Shown piece after piece: positions 3,569 to 63,725 of a stretch of DNA of 64,000 bases. A model generated the notes under the pieces. The model was not told the DNA's origin. It did not search any database and saw nothing but the letters and a program-made list of their open reading frames with translations. The first letter of the stretch is position 1. Each line of letters starts with the position of its first letter. Position numbers and translations under genes: made by a program. The stretch is from Candidatus Endolissoclinum faulkneri L5 (GTDB taxonomy: Bacteria; Pseudomonadota; Alphaproteobacteria; Thalassobaculales; Thalassobaculaceae), in contig NZ_CP006745.1 in NCBI RefSeq assembly GCF_000510265.1, forward strand, positions 1-64,000, read 5' to 3'.

Positions 3569-5144
3569 TAAAAAATCCTTTTATATTAAAAAAATTATAT
3601 AAATATTATTATTTCAAATAATTTTTTATTTAATGATTACTAGATAGTAAGTGTATAGTATGTGTTAAAAATTATGATCTATAATGGTAAGATTTAGTAG
3701 AATAAGGATCTATAGTATTTGCTAATGTTGTTTGGGATTTTATGCGATGAAGTAGGTTTATTATCGCTGACTCTGCTTTGATTACATTGGATCTAGCCTT
3801 TTATGAATAGGCATACTGTAATAATATTAGGAATAATTTTTATAAAAATATTTTTTTCCTTCAATATGCTATTAACCAATAGAGCATCATTGTTTTATAC
3901 TTAAAAGCTATTAATGCTATACATTGTATATATAAATTATTTATTTTAATTTGCGAATAAAGTATCTTATGTTTTTAAAATAATTAGAGTATATTTTCAT
4001 GTACTTTTTATTAATTTTTAATTCTTTTATAAAAGAATATTTTTAAGGGGATGAATTATCTAATGATTATTAGTCTTTGCTATACTAGTCTAATTTATTG
4101 TATATTCTATTGTTTTTTTATACCTGTATTTTACAAAAAGAATTTTTATATTAAAAGGTAGTATGTGCTTAATTTATAATGTTATTATTAATAGTGCAGT
4201 TTTATTGTGTAATATATACTTATGTTTTGTTTTTGCTTATAGAATTAGATCATTAAAATGATTTTTATTAATTATATGTTTTATTAACTAGGTTTTAATA
4301 AATAATACCTGATTAAACATTTAAAAATGTTTCAATTGAAAAAATCAAAGAAATTCAGTTTTGTAAAATGGATTATCCTAGCCTACGGATACAATATTTA
4401 TTTTTAATCAATAACTAAGTTGATTAAGTACGACTTAGTCTTGTATAGGAGATTACGCTTGTAAGTATTATTACTATAACGATAAAAGTAATTTTCAGTA
4501 GTTTTATTTAAGCGATATTAGTTTTTATGGTATTTATTATTAAATATCAGGTTATTTTTTTTTAAAAGCAACAATAAAGTTAAAGTAGTTTTTTACTTTT
4601 TTTTAATTTAAATTAACATTGGTAATATCAGAGAAGAGGAAGTATTATGTTTATATCTAATTTAATATATAAAGTCGATAATATTTAAATATTATAAATT
4701 TTACTAAGATTATGCTTATGTGCTTAATATTACTTTTCGATTAATGTAAAAAGAATACTTTTTATTAATTGATTGATAATAAAGATTAGAAGGCATATAG
4801 CTTAGTGTATATAATATTTAGCAAAGCTTTGCTTTTTCTTTTTAGCTTATAGTACTCTTATTTCCTAATAATACAGCGGTATAGCACTGTATACAAGTAT
4901 TGCATATTTAAATTTTACAAAGAATATCTTAATTATTCCTCTTAAAAATTAAATAAAATATTACTTAAGCAATATTTTATTTTTGCATAATAGTATTTTT
5001 ATTTGTTAAATATTAAAGATATGCTTATATAACTTGGATTTAACTAATAATTTGTAAACAGTTAGATTGTAATCTTTGACTTCGGTGGATTGTTCATTTA
5101 TTTGCCAATTATTGTTGTTAGGATATTCAACTAGAGTTACTGTT
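3569..5144. other. Long AT-rich spacer, mostly eroded
   Basis: About 1.6 kb with no intact gene. It must contain the secB promoter. At 3706-3920 a faint timA-like reading can be followed (separate entry). The mltA and smr genes that often follow in relatives could not be recognised. The rest is homopolymer-rich sequence. Confidence 0.6.
3706..3920 (+). pseudogene. timA: Possible remnant of timA (Tim44-domain adaptor)
   Basis: In relatives a Tim44/TimA-family gene often lies just beyond secB, divergently oriented. One broken frame here reads IVFANVVWDFMR, resembling the N-terminal membrane segment. After a deletion it continues ALITLDLAFYE, stop, AYCNNIRNNF, resembling the conserved helix 'ADPxFDxxxFLNGARxAFE'. 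There are internal stops and no usable frame. The match is short and partly guided by expected gene order, so confidence is low. Confidence 0.3.
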
Positions 5145-15359: not shown

Positions 15360-16562
15360 TTATAGCTCCTTTCCATTTAGTAGCCTAGGGAGGGTACTAA
15401 TGATACCCATAGCATGCAACATAGTAATATTTTTTAGTGGTTTAATATGATTCATAGCAGACAATCCAAAACAACGAATTCTTTTTAATGGAATAAAATC
15501 ATTAGAGAATAGCCGAGTTAATAAATCAGTGGCAGCTCCCATGCTCATAATGTCAATTCGTCGATTACGCTGGTATTTTTCTAGAACTGGAATGCTACCG
15601 ATGTCTAGTCCTAACCTTGCTGCATCCACAATTACTTCTGCGATTACAGCAATATCTCGTACGCTTATGTTGAAGCCTTGGCCTGCTATAGGATGTAAAC
15701 AATGGAATGAATCACCAATGAGCGCTAATCTTTTGGAAATTCCTGACTGCGCTATAGTTATTGCTAGCGGATATACAGCTCTGGGTCCTATTGACTTTAA
15801 AATTCCTCTAGAATCACCTAATCGCTCTTTTAGCGCCAAAGAAAAAAATTCATCATCTAGATTAGCAATTTTTTCAGCTACGGCATTACGCTCAGACCAA
15901 ACCATAGCAGAGTGATTTTCTTGTAACGGCAGCAAGGCTAAAGGGCCACCTGGAAGGAAACGTTCGTATGCTACATTATGATGTCTTTTTGAATGTTGGA
16001 TGGTATCCACTATGGCGCTTTGATGGTAATCCAAAGTGGTATATCTTATCTCGGCTAAAGTTCTTACTCGTGAATTACGTCCGTCTGCAGCAATTACAAG
16101 CTTAGATGCAATGACTTTCCCGCCCTCAAGGGTGAGTAACACTTGTTCTTTTTTTATCTCTAATGCTATAACTGATCGGTTATCAACAAAACTCACAAAA
16201 CTTGAGTGGTTTTCTAATTGAGTTAATAACGATTCTTTTAGAGTGCTATTATTAACGATATGACCCATTGGTTCGGAGCCGATAGTACGGTAATCGTAAT
16301 GTAGAGTACTGCTCGATCCCGCTTCAGAAACCAATATATCATATATAGGGTAAGCACTATCGGCGATCTTTTGCCATACGTCTAGTACAGTGAATAAGCG
16401 TCGTGAAGATAAAGAGATAGCTGTGGTACGTATGTCGTTTTTGCTTGCTAGAGCTTCGTATGGATTAATTTTGTCAACTAGCAAGCTAGGCAATCCGGCT
16501 TTAGCTAAAGCTAAAGCCAAAGTTAGCCCGGACAACCCAGCTCCAACAATAGTTATATCCAT
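15360..16562 (-). CDS. ubiH: UbiH/UbiF/Coq6-family FAD monooxygenase (ubiquinone synthesis)
   Basis: Flavoprotein hydroxylase of the UbiH/F/I family, which adds ring hydroxyls during ubiquinone synthesis. The FAD dinucleotide motif GAGLSG is at residues 7-12. The DG motif AADGRNSRVR is near 158-167, and GDSFHCLHPIAGQGFN is at 283-298. At 400 aa it is full length. Which ring position it modifies cannot be told from sequence, since alphaproteobacterial members are often broad in regiospecificity; the symbol is therefore approximate. There is no clear Shine-Dalgarno before the ATG. A decayed pnp fragment lies just upstream. Confidence 0.85.
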   Translation of the reverse strand: MDITIVGAGLSGLTLALALAKAGLPSLLVDKINPYEALASKNDIRTTAISLSSRRLFTVLDVWQKIADSAYPIYDILVSEAGSSSTLHYDYRTIGSEPMGHIVNNSTLKESLLTQLENHSSFVSFVDNRSVIALEIKKEQVLLTLEGGKVIASKLVIAADGRNSRVRTLAEIRYTTLDYHQSAIVDTIQHSKRHHNVAYERFLPGGPLALLPLQENHSAMVWSERNAVAEKIANLDDEFFSLALKERLGDSRGILKSIGPRAVYPLAITIAQSGISKRLALIGDSFHCLHPIAGQGFNISVRDIAVIAEVIVDAARLGLDIGSIPVLEKYQRNRRIDIMSMGAATDLLTRLFSNDFIPLKRIRCFGLSAMNHIKPLKNITMLHAMGIISTLPRLLNGKEL

Positions 16563-17249
16563 AGTTTATTAATTTTGGTTGCTTAAATAGCAATTCATGA
16601 CTGTTTCTATAAGATAAAGTTACATGTAAGCTTTCAAAAAAAATTTTTCTCTTAAAATTAAACATCTAAGCCGAGCTTCTATTTCTTGCATAGACTATAA
16701 ATTATTATTTAATATTAGTTGATAGATTATTACCAGTATTCTGGTCTATAACTTTCATCGATGGTTTAACTTTGCCGCGATCCTCAAAGCAAATAACTTC
16801 AACTTGATTATTTCTTTAATTATTTCGAAAATAGTTTTATTTCTTTGAAATTTAAATTTCTATTATTATAAAAATCAAACAACAAATTATTTACATTTAT
16901 TGTTATAATTAACTTTTCAAATTAATTAAAAATTAAGTGATATTCTATCAATAATCAATTTATAATCCCAAATTGGTTATATGTGTATTCTTTATAGAGA
17001 AAAGGTATAATTTTGCTATTGCAAAACTTTAACTTAACTAGTAAGTAACTTTAAGATCTAAATGCACTTTTATTATTTATTTTTTAATCTAATCAATAAT
17101 TAATTATGAGCAATAAGGCTACTTTGTTATGAGATTAATTAACTAAAATATACTCGTAGATATATTCACATCTTCTTAAGATAACTCTAGATCAAAATCT
17201 GATTATTTGTTTTTTTTGATTATAAAAAGTGATCATTTTAATTTTTATA
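16563..17249. other. Spacer upstream of ubiH-like gene
   Basis: About 690 bp of AT-rich DNA. The only recognisable content is the decayed pnp 3' fragment (16670-16850). The remainder (16851-17249) is featureless A/T-rich sequence. Confidence 0.55.
16670..16850 (-). pseudogene. Decayed duplicate of the 3' end of pnp
   Basis: Read on the minus strand, 16705-16803 encodes FEDRGKVKPSMKVIDQ followed by NTGNNLSTNIK and a stop. The real pnp C-terminus reads [27 protein letters not shown], stop. By hand, 84 of 99 bases and 23 of 32 residues match. Similarity continues past the stop into about 35 bp of pnp 3' flank (to about 16670). It also continues upstream, with indels, to about 16850 (pnp 'TVSEVVKE' region). 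Because the 3' flank matches too, it is a piece of duplicated chromosome rather than another S1-domain gene. It has no start and cannot be functional as protein. Confidence 0.85.
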
Positions 17250-17465
17250 TCATATAATCTTTCTTGCATCTTCTACTAGCATAATTGGAATACCATTCCG
17301 AATTGGAAAGGCAAGGCCTGCATGTTCGCTTATGAGTTCTTGCTTTGCTTTATCATATACTAAAGCTCGTTTTGTGACAGGGCATACAAGAATATCTAAT
17401 AGCTTGTGATCAAGTTCTATGGTATCGTATTCATTGATTGATACTGGCATATCTGAGTTTTGCAT
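17250..17465 (-). CDS. Trm112/UPF0434-family protein
   Basis: Small YcaR/Trm112-like protein of 71 aa. [16 protein letters not shown] and the later [19 protein letters not shown] are the family signature. Only one cysteine (C28) of the zinc-ribbon pair remains, which is normal for the alphaproteobacterial branch. Eukaryotic Trm112 activates methyltransferases; the role of the bacterial protein is not settled. A strong site, GAGGGGAG, precedes the ATG. It is divergent from murJ. In relatives a Lon-like protein gene often precedes it, but none is seen here. Confidence 0.88.
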
Positions 17466-17573
17466 AAATTTCTCCCCTCAAAAACTACACAGCAACTATA
17501 ACGTAGTTAATTACCATAGGTCATGTTTACTATGATAATTCGTAATAATTTTCTTTTGACATAGTTTAATTAA

Positions 17574-50083: not shown

Positions 50084-51576
50084 CGAAGGCAATCATAATT
50101 TTGGTAACTTAAATACTTTTATCAAAGTAAATATCTGTATGTATAAACATAATGTAGATATTCTTCTAATAGAATAGTCTTTTTATATGATATTTAAAAG
50201 CCGAATTCAGCTGCGAATGTAAATTTTACTACTTATGCTAAAGGTTAAATTTAGTTGTAGAACTTACTATGTCTGTTTAAGCTTTAATAACGATAAAGTC
50301 TCTATTTTGCATCTCGAGCGGATAATATTTTGAGTGAATCGAGATTTGACTTAACTTGAATTTGCGGATAGAACACTTGTTATTCCTATTATACAGCGAA
50401 TGATTTTGTTACTTTTATATTTATTAATATAAGGGCATTTTAGCTGATTATGTATGTTAGATGAAGTCTTAATTGCTTGATTAATAATACTGTCTAGTGC
50501 TTTTACATGACGCTCATCATTAACTTACCTTTAAGGTAAACGAGGAAATTATTTTTATAAAATTTCTTCCTAATCTTATTAATCTTTTAAGTAGTCGCAA
50601 AATTCAGCAATAATAGCGTTGGTTTTATTTAGAGCAATCATTAGTATTTTTATTCTAACAAAATGGATGGTAGTAAAATTAGCACATACAATATAAGAGC
50701 TTTAGTATGCGGACTATTTCGTGTTAATCATAAAATATTCTATGTTTTATAACAAGCGCAATAATTCAGTATATTCTCATACTGGAGGGCATAGTCTATA
50801 ACACGCAAGAAAATCTTTAAATTATATATAGATAACCTAGCAGATTTGCTATTGTAGTGTATTATGTAGTTTATAAAATTCATTATTAATTGAATCCGAT
50901 TTTGTTTATAAATTATCCCTGCACAATAGCTATAAAGCAAAATTCTTTTATTTCTCGTGTACTAGTAACTCTACTTCTACTGCAGAGATCGGTATTGCTA
51001 TCTCATAGCAGGCTATCTCTACGTGTTTTGTAGTGTTAAGTTGTTTAAACTTTGCTCATTTACGAATTTTTAAATTAAATATCTTTAACGATTAATATAC
51101 AATATTTTGGGCAATAAATTATTATCTTTTATTTATTATTCGTCAATACTAATCTTGGGAAAATTTTTTAATAAGTAAACTTAGTCTGTTGCTGAATTGA
51201 TTTATGTGATGGTATATTTATTGTACTAAAATTAAATTAAGAATTATTATTCATCAATTTTGCGTTTTTATTTAGTAGAATATACTAATAAATGTTTTTT
51301 ATCTTTATTAGAAGATTTTTAATCTTTTTAAATTTCATTACTAAAAGTTTATTTTTATCTAAATTTGTATTTATTTTCTAAATCATGCTCTTGATCAAAA
51401 AATTATTGGTTTTAAGCTAGGAGTTGCTCGTTTATATTTTATATATATTTGTAATATTTTAGAGGATTAAAGTGCATGGCATGTGTGTCTTGCAACAATA
51501 GTAAAGCAATATTTTGCGTTTTACATTGTAAGGTACAGTGCTATATACATGCGAAGAGCAAGTCTGCAATTTGAAT

Positions 51577-51929: not shown

Positions 51930-53455
51930 ATCCGCTTAATTGATTAGAAAAAATATCAAATATTTTTTAGCACTTATAAGGTGAAGCAGATAACTTGTTA
52001 ATGCTTCTCAAAATTTATCACAAATAAGAAAATAAAGTATGAAAATAATGTAATTTTGCTGAGTCCTTATTGGTTGATTCTTGTATCAATTGTACTACGA
52101 TAAAGTAGGCTTTGGAGCAGTTTTTATCATTTCATATAAAGTAAATCTACTATTGTACGAAACTATCGCGTATTATAGAGCTATCTAAATTATATTACTC
52201 ACTTCGTAAGCTTGGTTTCATTTAGCGTTGATGTAATTGCAGACTGCAAGATAGTGGTATTAAAATACTAAACCTTCAACGTAAAAATATATATATTTTC
52301 AATATGTTATAGAATCCAGGCTATGCAATCATCAGCATACAACTTGCCTATCGCGCTTGGTAAGGATATAGAATGGAGCTAATAGTATTTGCTCTTATTA
52401 CTATACCAGATCTTTTTATGTGTAGACTACCGGATCAAAAAAATCTATATTATTTTCTCAGAATGATATTTGCACTACTTTACAAATTTATCTCTTGAGT
52501 GCTACCGTTGATCATGATTGATTCAAAAATGCTGGAATTATTAGTCTATGAAGGTATGCCTTATCTTTTATAATGGGTTCTTTATGAAGTCTCATAAAAA
52601 GGAATTGTTAGATTAAAATGGGGGATTTAAAAGATAAAGAATCGATAAGTTATTATGCTCCAATCTTGATATTAGGAACATCGAGGTTATAATGCCTTAA
52701 TTAATTGAGGATAAAAAGATTATGCATTAAAGCGTTTTACGTAAGCACGATTGGACGTAGATAGTAATAAATCAAACCTACCGCCTTGGTAACGCTCTCT
52801 TAATATTGTTCTCATTTTCACAAAGATCACTCATCTACTGATAATTGCTGGGAAAGCGATTAAGGTTGCTGTTTAACGCCTTACTCAAACGATAGCATGA
52901 TTTTCTTAGTGTATTTAGCTTATTAGAGCAAATTAAGTTCCATCGTTTGATGTAATTATCGTTTTTATTAAAAATAAGGATAATTTTTTTGTTCGTATTT
53001 TATTTTCTTTTGCTTAAAAATTGATAGCCGGAACATTTTTGTGATATGAGGCAATAACAGCTTTTGTGAATAAGCGATATGCTTGACATCTAGTGTGTGG
53101 ATAAATTACTTAAAGTGGATGGTGCATTTTGTTCCGATAAAGAATATAAAAGAGATAGTGCGTTAGGTAAAGCTGATGCTGGTAGTTTTTAGATACGCAA
53201 AAATTTATCAATTAGTATAGTTTATCATAGGATGTATAGACTTATTTGAAGATAGAGAATTTAATTGGATGAATACTATTGTATGTTTAGGTTATTGCCA
53301 TTGTTTTAGGTAATAGTGAATTATAGAATAGCTTAATACAACGCTGCCTAAAAATTATTTATTGTCGAGCAACTGTATTTATCAAATAAATGAAGTATAA
53401 AGGAGTAATCAACACAAGTAATCATGTAGGCAAACTTGAGTTTTTAGTTGATAAA
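51930..53455 (+). pseudogene. ftsK: ftsK pseudogene (DNA translocase), frameshifted and stop-ridden
   Basis: Pieces of FtsK appear in correct order across shifting frames. LPIALGKDI is at 52344. A wrecked Walker A TTGSKKS (for GTTGSGKS) is at 52426. MIDSKMLELLVYEGMPYLL at 52514 stands for MIDPKMLELSVYDGIPHLL. Then come a KKxIVRLKW segment near 52600, NIVLIFTKITHLLIIAGKAI near 52802 (Walker B region IVVIVDEMADLMMVAGKDI), and KIDSRN near 53017. VDGAFCSDKE follows near 53115. At the gamma end are LIQRCLKIIYCRATVFIK near 53332 and GVINTSNHVGKLEFL at 53402. Many stops and at least four frame changes exclude function. lolA follows 120 bp later, the standard ftsK-lolA order. Confidence 0.93.
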
Positions 53456-53574
53456 GCATTGCCTTATTAAAATTAGAGATACTGAGTAGTATACGCTCTG
53501 TGTTGTAAATAGTAAATTTGTTATAAACATTCTTAGTTAGAGTTCACCGTTGGGGTAAAATTTAATAAATTTTT

Positions 53575-60961: not shown

Positions 60962-61610
60962 AATTTAATTCTCCAAAATAAATCAGGATAGCTAGTAAAA
61001 TATAGTACATAAAAACTATTGATCTGTTGGTCTAGAAAAGTATCCTCTCTCTTGTAGAGAGAACTATATAAATATAAATAGTCAATATACGTATAAGCTA
61101 TAATGCATATTATTTTACTATAATTAATTTTTTGTAAAGACTGCAATGATAAAGATTAAAATAGTTGTTGTTATTTAATATCTTAAGAATTAATAATAAA
61201 TTAGAAATTCAGTTATATTAAATCTTTTGATTTATATTGATATTAACGAGAATTATAGATTACAGAAAAATGTAGTTGCATTTTTATGCGACCATAGTAA
61301 CTAGTAATATATTATAGATTGCAGCCCAAAATACCTAAAATCCGTAAAACACATTTTAGGTATTTACTAAAAACATGGATTAATAAGATGTATATATCTT
61401 AATATATAGGCAAATAAGCATATGCAAGCTATTCTTTGTATTATCTTTTGCCAGCGCATTTAACAATAGATTAAGCGACAAACTCAGTAAAATTAAACTA
61501 CGATTAAGCTATAAGGGCTACTTTTGTAAAAATGATGCTTTACTACCACAGTGGGGCAATGTCCTATTATTTTAATGTCGCGCTTTCATTTCTTGTTATA
61601 TTATAAATGA
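60962..61610. other. Spacer between ppa and pnp
   Basis: About 650 bp. A 13-bp hairpin at 61329-61365 (11-nt loop) may be the pnp terminator. About 35 bp directly after the pnp stop (61576-61610) match the duplicated fragment at 16.7 kb. Confidence 0.5.
61329..61365. terminator. Hairpin downstream of pnp
   Basis: A 13-bp perfect stem, AAATACCTAAAAT (61329-61341) with 61353-61365, with an 11-nt loop. It lies 245 bp beyond the pnp stop on the minus strand; distance makes the link uncertain. Confidence 0.4.
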
Positions 61611-63725
61611 TTATTTAATATTATCTGCTAAATCATTACCAGTATCCTGGTCTATAATTTTCATAGAAAGTTTAACTTTGCCGCGATCATCAAAGCCAAT
61701 GACCTTAACTTTAACTTTGTCACCTTCTTTAACTACTTCGGAAACAGTCTCAGGACGCTTCCCTCGCGTTAGCTGACTGATATGAACAAGACCATCCTTT
61801 GAGCCAAAAAAGTTTACAAAAGCACCAAAATCAAGTGTTTTAACTACTTTACCGTCATAGACTTTACCTATCTCTGGCTCAGAGATGAGTGAATAAATCC
61901 AGTTATGCGCAGCCTCCAGTGCGATCTTATCTACTGCAACAATTTTAACGTTGCCATCGTCTTCAACATCAATTTTAGCACCGGTAGTTTCGCAAATTTC
62001 GCGAATTACTTTACCACGTGAACCAATGACATCGCGTATTTTATTTACTGGAATTTTAATCGATCTCATCTTTGGTGCCGTTTTTGATACATGTTCACGA
62101 GCAATCGGTAAAATCTTATTCATCTCGTTGAGGATGTCCAGCCTACCGTTCTTTGCCTGCTCTAGCGCAATCTTAATGATTTCGATTGTTATAGAGGTGA
62201 TTTTGATGTCCATTTGTAGAGCAGTTATACCTTTGTTAGTGCCGGCAACTTTTAAATCCATATCACCCAATTCGTCTTCGTCACCTAATATGTCAGATAA
62301 AACAACGAATTCTTCACCTTTTTTTATTAGTCCCATAGCTATGCCAGCTACAGGACGAACTAAAGGCACACCAGCATCCATAAGAGATAAGGATGCGCCG
62401 CAGACAGTTGCCATCGAAGAAGAGCCGTTTGCTTCAGTAATTTCAGATACCACTCGTAAGGTGTACGGAAAATGCTCTTTGCTAGGTAATAAAGGTTTTA
62501 GAGAACGCCAGGCTAGTTTACCGTGACCAACTTCACGACGCCCAGGAGGGCCCATGCGCCCGACTTCGTTTACTGAAAACGCTGAGAAATTATAATGAAG
62601 TAAAAAGTGTTCTCGATATTCTCCTTCTAAGGCATCGACTATCTGTTCATCATGACTACTACCCAGGGTGGTAATCACCATAGCTTGTGTTTCACCGCGA
62701 GTAAAAAGAGCGGATCCATGAAGTCGTGGAAACAGCCCAATTTCAGCAGCTATTGGGCGAATAGTGGAGGTATTGCGCTCATCGATACGTTTACCGGTAT
62801 TTAATATGCGACTGCGCACAATATCAGATTCTATATTTTTCAATAAAGTATTTGCTACTTCTTCTTCTAGCAAATCATCAATTGACTCAATAGCTTTTTT
62901 CTTAGCGTCTATAATTTTATTTTGTCGTTTAATCTTGTTAGGCTCGTCATAGGCAGTTTCCATCATAGCTTTACCAGAAGCTTCTAGTTTTCTTCGTATT
63001 GCCTTGATATCTAACTTAGTTTCTGGTAGATCCATAGGATCTTTTGCGCAAGCTTCAGCAAGTTCTATTATTGCGTCGATCATTGGCTGAAAACTTTTAT
63101 GCCCAAAATTAATAGCATCGAGCATTACTTTTTCAGACAACTCATATGCCATAGATTCTACCATAAGCAGCCCTTCTTGAGTGCCGGCAAGTACTAAATC
63201 AAGCTCGCTTTTCTTAGCAGTATCTATCGTTGGGTTTAAAATATATTGACCATCACTGTAGCCGACACGGGCAGCTCCAATCGGGCCTAAAAACGGCGCG
63301 CCAGACAAACACAAAGCGGCAGAAGTGCCGAGCATTGCAACAATATCTGGATCATTTTTTAGATCATGAGCAAGCACTGTACAGATAACTTGCACTTCAT
63401 TTTTAAATTCATTGACAAATAATGGACGTATCGGTCGGTCAATTAAGCGTGATGTGAGTGTTTCTTTCTCGTTTGGACGTGATTCTCGCTTGAAGAAGCC
63501 ACCAGGAACTTTACCTGCGGCATAAGTTTTTTCCTGGTAATGCACTGATAACGGGAAAAAATCTATATCATGGCGTTGAGTTTTATTTATGACCACAGTG
63601 CATAGAACGGCAGTATTTCCATAGCGAGCAAGAACTGCACCATCTGCTTGGCGTGCAATTTTACCTGTCTCAAAGGAGAAGGTTCGATTACCCCATTCAA
63701 TTTCCTTACGGTATACTTCAAACAT
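61611..63725 (-). CDS. pnp: Polyribonucleotide nucleotidyltransferase (PNPase)
   Basis: Phosphorolytic 3'-5' exoribonuclease of the RNA degradosome. Two RNase PH domains are complete, with [27 protein letters not shown] in the first and [16 protein letters not shown] in the second. A KH domain ([15 protein letters not shown]) and a C-terminal S1 domain ([19 protein letters not shown]) follow. At 704 aa it is full length. AAGGA precedes the ATG. The final 30 or so codons and 3' flank exist again as a decayed copy at 16.7 kb. rpsO, the usual upstream neighbour, is not found in the 275 bp left in the window. Confidence 0.97.

Follow-up and report, generated by a model that had tools for sequence, protein, structure and literature searches.

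A Decayed Copy of the pnp 3′ End in a Non-Coding Gap of the Candidatus Endolissoclinum faulkneri L5 Genome

Introduction

How does the end of an intact gene come to lie a second time, in non-coding DNA, in the reduced genome of a symbiont? This question is raised by a short segment in the first 64,000 nucleotides of the Candidatus Endolissoclinum faulkneri L5 contig NZ_CP006745.1, a stretch referred to here as the window. The segment resembles the 3′ end of pnp, whose intact copy lies about 45 kb away on the same strand. The published account of the L5 genome describes the loss of recA, finds no evidence of mobile elements, and lists few pseudogenes (PMC3851785). What was copied, when, by what means, and whether the copy has any function are considered in turn.

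The Copy and Its Source

The intact pnp gene of L5 (61611–63725, minus strand) encodes a 704-aa protein with RNase_PH, RNase_PH_C, PNPase, KH_1, and S1 domains. A BLAST comparison of the window with itself aligned 61579–61748 (minus strand) with 16672–16835 in the same orientation, with 78.9% identity over 171 columns. The latter segment is the decayed ectopic copy; it lies on the minus strand, in the sense orientation as in pnp, and the outer limits of its alignment are at about 16665–16838. The matched content comprises the last ~46 codons of pnp, including the stop, plus 32 bp of 3′ flank. The presence of this flank in the match indicates that it is the DNA of pnp itself that was copied and not a related S1 domain. 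The copy and the pnp region align locally with a score of 161, while the highest score among 1000 Markov (dinucleotide) shuffles is 37.

These results bear out the initial annotation, which had reported a decayed copy of the pnp end in the same orientation some 45 kb from its source. Its core figure of 84/99 bases is close to the 83 identities found in the best 99-column stretch of the present alignment; its extent of 16670–16850 is slightly too long, since similarity to pnp stops near 16838, and its term “segmental duplication” is too large for an ectopic copy of ~170 bp. Extension into the right flank was equalled by 0.63 of 500 shuffles, giving no clear extension, and that into the left flank by 0.064, a borderline value not clearly beyond chance.

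Is the copy one member of a larger set, or better matched to another gene? With window positions 16600–16900 as the query against the 1,518,636-bp L5 genome (40 of 52 first-look candidates scored), the DNA search returned two places at E ≤ 0.001: the query itself and 61579–61748 (+), the latter with 79% identity and an E value of 1.6e-34. The converse query, the 1001 bases of 61300–62300, returned itself and the copy, with the next-best match at an E value of 0.016 (39 of 39 candidates scored). A better source gene and a repeat family had both been named beforehand as outcomes that would overturn the annotation; in these genome-wide searches pnp is the only source found, and there is one copy plus that source.

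That only a gene end is left is what might be seen if a second complete pnp, or a paralogue with an S1 domain, had eroded in place. A remnant of this kind is, nevertheless, highly improbable: the match takes in 32 bp beyond the gene and does not continue past ~61748, the next ~200 bp of pnp have no recognizable counterpart in the rest of the gap, and the distance of the copy, on the scale of that between L5 and its sister strain L2 (given below), may also speak against it. The segment is a real, single, ectopic pnp fragment, apparently non-functional. Events of its kind are ordinary, and its location is mildly surprising.

The Locus and the Sister Strain

The copy is situated in a non-coding gap between two genes on the minus strand. 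Just downstream of it on that strand is a FAD-dependent monooxygenase-type gene (FAD_binding_3; 15360–16562), presumably a UbiH and called UbiH-like here, and its other neighbor encodes a Trm112-like protein (trm112; 17250–17465, ends read from the sequence). Both flanking genes are aligned between L5 and Ca. Endolissoclinum faulkneri L2 (NC_019566.1, 1,481,191 bp), whose pnp protein is 89% identical to that of L5. When window positions 15360–17500 were compared with L2, the alignment ran to query base 1257 and resumed at base 1669. The L5 block thus left without a BLAST-aligned counterpart (16617–17027) holds the copy and measures 411 bp versus 43 bp in L2.

Looking for the same copy in a sister strain was a check proposed with the initial annotation, and in L2 no copy was found. 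The syntenic L2 gap holds no trace above chance of L2 pnp, L5 pnp, or the copy, since 25%, 40%, and 11% of 500 shuffles, respectively, scored equally well, and a second pnp end was not found elsewhere in L2 (15 of 20, 7 of 63, and 40 of 45 first-look candidates scored). Of the 411 L5 bases left unaligned, the copy accounts for ~174, so that ~237 others stand opposite 43 in L2. Because the copy makes up only part of the extra L5 sequence, L2 does not offer a clean empty site; it may have lost the copy or may never have had it.

The gap itself is an old rearrangement point. The trm112 and UbiH-like genes point in opposite directions in seven of seven relatives’ loci and share one orientation in both L5 and L2, two genomes described as almost entirely syntenic apart from two small inversions (PMC3851785). 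Furthermore, a GBBH-like_N (PF06155) gene adjoins trm112 in both of the free-living relatives searched. A profile search for PF06155 gave no match in L5 or L2 (the 14 control genomes likewise gave none), and a relative’s protein from the PF06155 gene, used as a query, found no remnant in the gap.

This history invites a reading in which the copy is a by-product of the older rearrangement, that is, filler at an inversion breakpoint, possibly laid down while recA was still present. The flipped orientation and the absence of the PF06155 gene from L5 and L2 do place the copy in a breakpoint interval, and its age is compatible with an event before the L2/L5 split. The coincidence may mean nothing, however, depending on the frequency of such gaps across the genome, and a copy of an NMT1_3-type gene made in L5 after the split (described below) indicates that such copies arise later too. 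The breakpoint reading is considered unlikely, although it carries more weight than the other alternatives discussed here.

Age of the Copy

Alignment with L5 pnp gives 165 comparable sites, 31 of them different in the copy, and alignment with L2 pnp gives 31 differences in 166. That many differences from the source cannot stem from the joining of the same reads, so an assembly artefact, conceivable for a genome assembled from shotgun metagenome reads (PMC3851785), is exceedingly improbable. At the sites where L2 and L5 pnp differ from each other, the copy agrees with L2 at seven, with L5 at seven, and with neither at two. If the copy had been made in L5 after the split, agreement with L5 should dominate; for a copy made half-way along the L5 branch, with equal rates, the probability of at least seven L2 agreements in 14 is 0.04. 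The equal distance to pnp of both strains thus dates the copy to about the L2/L5 split.

A comparison of branch lengths gives a similar estimate. The copy branch is 0.16 by Jukes–Cantor (JC) and 0.16–0.21 by maximum likelihood (ML), and the per-lineage L2/L5 distance at 4-fold sites (625/2281 sites, 17 window genes) is 0.170 (JC) or 0.176 (K2P). The ratio of copy age to the age of the split (copy branch over per-lineage 4-fold distance, JC) is 0.95, with a 95% range of 0.58–1.40. The split has been placed at 6–31 million years (PMC3851785).

Which side of the split the event falls on is a finer matter. At one site where the L2 and L5 genes are identical, the copy instead matches all seven outgroups, which leans toward a pre-split origin, and if the event was that early recA may still have been present. 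Tree tests with two alignments and three models, based on seven outgroup loci from among the relatives’ pnp loci fetched, favored the topology joining the copy with L5 (post-split) in six of six runs, by 0.33–1.36 log units over the other two; none of the three was rejected, as all fell within the 95% set every time. The clock is coarse because 165 sites cannot separate a pre-split from an early post-split origin. Hence, of the “dated decay clock next to an intact original” that had been proposed, the intact original stands, while the clock is weak, with a wide range around 0.95 and inseparable topologies. Judged from these alignments, the copy was probably made near the L2/L5 split.

Decay and the Question of Function

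Compared with pnp, the copy has a 7-bp deletion and 22 changes at sites where the L2 and L5 genes agree. Between the deletion and the stop, 14 of 36 codons have changed relative to the inferred ancestor, 11 of them with a change of residue, with the proviso that the alignment is uncertain beside the deletion, where the first two changed codons lie. The 21 changes counted on the copy branch comprise 13 GC>AT, five AT>GC, and three of other kinds; the count leaves out the 22nd copy-only site, at which all seven outgroups have the same base as the copy. The changes in the copy look like neutral decay with an AT bias.

A copy retained for function might act as a promoter, a leader RNA, or a small peptide upstream of the UbiH-like gene. 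Its position, in sense orientation ~100 bp upstream of that gene, and the persistence of its last ~33 codons plus stop in one frame would suit such a role. Nonetheless, the high share of residue-altering changes gives no sign of purifying selection on a peptide, and no promoter- or terminator-like sites were found inside the copy. Across 16500–17300 there are five promoter-like sites versus a shuffle mean of 7.0, and no terminators versus 0.1. With sister strain L2 also lacking a detectable copy, retention for function is very unlikely.

Mechanism of Copying

The enzymes that might be held responsible were sought by profile in both strains and in 14 control genomes. RecA has no match in L5 or L2 today (0/2), whereas all 14 control genomes match; Ku has none in either strain versus one of 14 controls, and the reverse transcriptase RVT_1 has none versus three of 14. 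With RVT_1 in 0/2 genomes a retrocopy was rejected or at least disfavored, as was Ku-type joining or filler from non-homologous end joining (NHEJ), with Ku in 0/2.

A mobile or repeat element was likewise rejected, given one copy plus its source only and no direct repeats at the ends above chance. The longest word shared by the two ends of the copy is 8 bp, and 32% of 300 shuffles did equally well, although decay could hide short repeats. The check for short direct repeats that had been suggested with the initial annotation thus came back empty, and its view that no mobile element is involved agrees with the lack of a repeat family and of end repeats, as well as with the finding of no mobile elements in the L5 genome (PMC3851785). 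The longest word shared at each junction is 4 bp, and the junctions are blurred by decay. As no microhomology or terminal repeat is discernible, the mechanism is not readable from the junctions.

The explanation preferred here is that the ~170-bp 3′ end of pnp was written into the non-coding UbiH–trm112 gap at about the time when L2 and L5 separated. The agent would have been illegitimate recombination, probably independent of RecA, and the route may have been template switching at a replication fork or the capture of a short single strand. Such an event would need no mobile element, Ku, or reverse transcriptase. Afterwards the copy would have drifted, apparently neutrally and with an AT bias, and L2 would have lost it or never had it. 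Taken as a whole, this account of a dead pnp-end copy, made near the split by illegitimate recombination of a probably RecA-independent kind and then neutrally eroded, is given a probability of roughly 75%.

Other Gene-Fragment Copies in L5 and L2

The initial annotation had called such a copy unusual in a repeat-poor, reduced genome. To survey for similar fragments, 391 proteins from open reading frames (ORFs) of at least 90 aa were compared with 331,387 noncoding bases in an L5 sample of 742,637 bases (48.9%). With SEG masking only the pnp copy was found. With masking off there were two matches at E ≤ 1e-3 (the pnp copy and an NMT1_3-type gene fragment) and two more at E ≤ 0.05, while a control with reversed proteins gave none at E ≤ 1e-3 and one more at E ≤ 0.05. 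With both masking and composition adjustment off, four matches were obtained at E ≤ 1e-3 and none with reversed proteins. The two stretches added by this last setting were left uncounted as gene copies: 641174–641356, which matches an end domain of a very long ORF and is perhaps a short carrier-protein gene, and 376546–376695. The L2 sample of 476,001 bases (32.1%), with 263 proteins against 219,018 noncoding bases and run without the reversed control, gave one match at E ≤ 1e-3, an amidase fragment, and one more at E ≤ 0.05.

Cross-strain comparisons at 1e-3 gave six rows for L5 proteins on L2 noncoding DNA and seven rows for L2 proteins on L5 noncoding DNA. Apart from the three copies and an ftsK remnant, these rows look like genes cut by the edge of a stretch or by ORF calling. 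The remnant, at 52256–53467 of the window, is a decayed gene matched by an L2 ORF (50000–51724) that is truncated at the edge of its stretch. The position of the remnant identifies it as the ftsK/SpoIIIE pseudogene listed in Table 2 of PMC3851785.

Comparison of each DNA sample with itself gave 25 pairs in L5, where overlap with ORFs was checked for 18 of the stretches, and 11 in L2; one pair is tRNA-Ser. Among the long pairs of the L5 sample, those with the highest similarity belong to a local repeat at 133452–133984, outside ORFs of at least 90 aa, with two nested pairs of 112 and 154 columns that are 98–99% alike. In the window, a 36-bp inverted pair (3819–3854 and 50546–50581) is 89% alike with 6% G+C, and is probably of low complexity. 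For distant pairs, about a quarter of the pairings in L5 and a tenth in L2 were covered (the squared sampled fractions), and the counts of copies are lower bounds for this reason.

The NMT1_3-type fragment of L5 (713214–713284) is a 71-bp, inverted copy, 93% identical to its source 3 kb away at 715952–717043, a gene that is presumably a TAXI. It agrees with the L5 source at six sites, with that of L2 at none, and with neither at two, and has three changes of its own. The age ratio is 0.43 (0.09–0.88), and a copy as old as the split would show zero of six L2 agreements with a probability of 0.016. The flanks of the site align in L2, where 20 bases stand in place of ~160 in L5, and the only match to the fragment in L2 is the L2 form of the source gene. 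This fragment was made after the L2/L5 split. The amidase gene fragment of L2 (81911–82238) is 328 bp long, inverted, and 70.6% identical to its source 3 kb away at 84417–85844. It shares its state with the L2 source at 22 sites, with that of L5 at 20, and with neither at eight, and there are 76 changes of its own in 339. Its age ratio of 1.8 (1.4–2.2) makes it older than the split, although it might be an old paralogue instead of a copy. No trace of it was found in the matching gap of L5.

The copies found range from about 70 to 330 bp, occur in both orientations, and lie 3–45 kb from their sources. The pnp copy is uncommon, as had been claimed, but it is not alone: the sampled fractions of L5 and L2 yielded another two partial copies of genes.

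Relation to Known Systems

Short-patch double illegitimate recombination (SPDIR) copies short genomic segments to ectopic sites without RecA, and the segments are mostly shorter than the pnp copy. The two are alike in short, ectopic copying, for the pnp copy probably without RecA, while no microhomology is demonstrable for the pnp copy. That illegitimate recombination yields short variable segments is already known (PMC2884548). The small variable segments described there are likewise short, without a known mobile element, and attributed to illegitimate recombination; the pnp copy is distinguished from them by a known donor, a gene still intact 45 kb away in the same genome, by a genome without a RecA match, and by an age set against a sister strain.

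Within Ca. E. faulkneri, the pseudogenes of Table 2 in PMC3851785 are also decayed coding sequence in the same genome. These decay in place, whereas the pnp copy is a relocated piece whose parent gene remains intact, and that table does not include it. The string “duplicat” occurs once in the main text of PMC3851785, about duplicate BLAST hits. A count of repeats over 50 bp that takes in Ca. E. faulkneri is described in work on another tunicate symbiont (PMC5698493); the portions of PMC3851785 and PMC5698493 cited here contain no report of the pnp copy. For comparison, the whitefly symbiont Portiera is similar in its low coding density, and one genome tabulated in work on its repeats carries 23 direct and 17 inverted repeats (PMC7821994), whereas the Ca. 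E. faulkneri copies are single and come from different genes. For Buchnera, the recombination events known are reported to be few (PMC5698493).

Implications

The handful of comparable copies from other genes hints at slow and leaky copying in this sea-squirt symbiont. It is possible, though put forward only tentatively, that a symbiont that lacks recA and is losing genes continues at a slow pace to insert short copies of its own genes into dead DNA, with ages that span the split of the two strains. What gives the pnp copy added value is that it stands with a few others, differing in age, in a pair of genomes without recA. If the reading is true, a series of copy ages across two dated strains would make RecA-independent copying measurable on a scale of millions of years. 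Fragment copies of this kind are neutral sequence with a known starting state, usable for rate estimates, and through them illegitimate copying could be measured over evolutionary time. Reduced, recA-less symbionts have been described as structurally stable; these relatively dated fragments suggest that short sequence is still gained.
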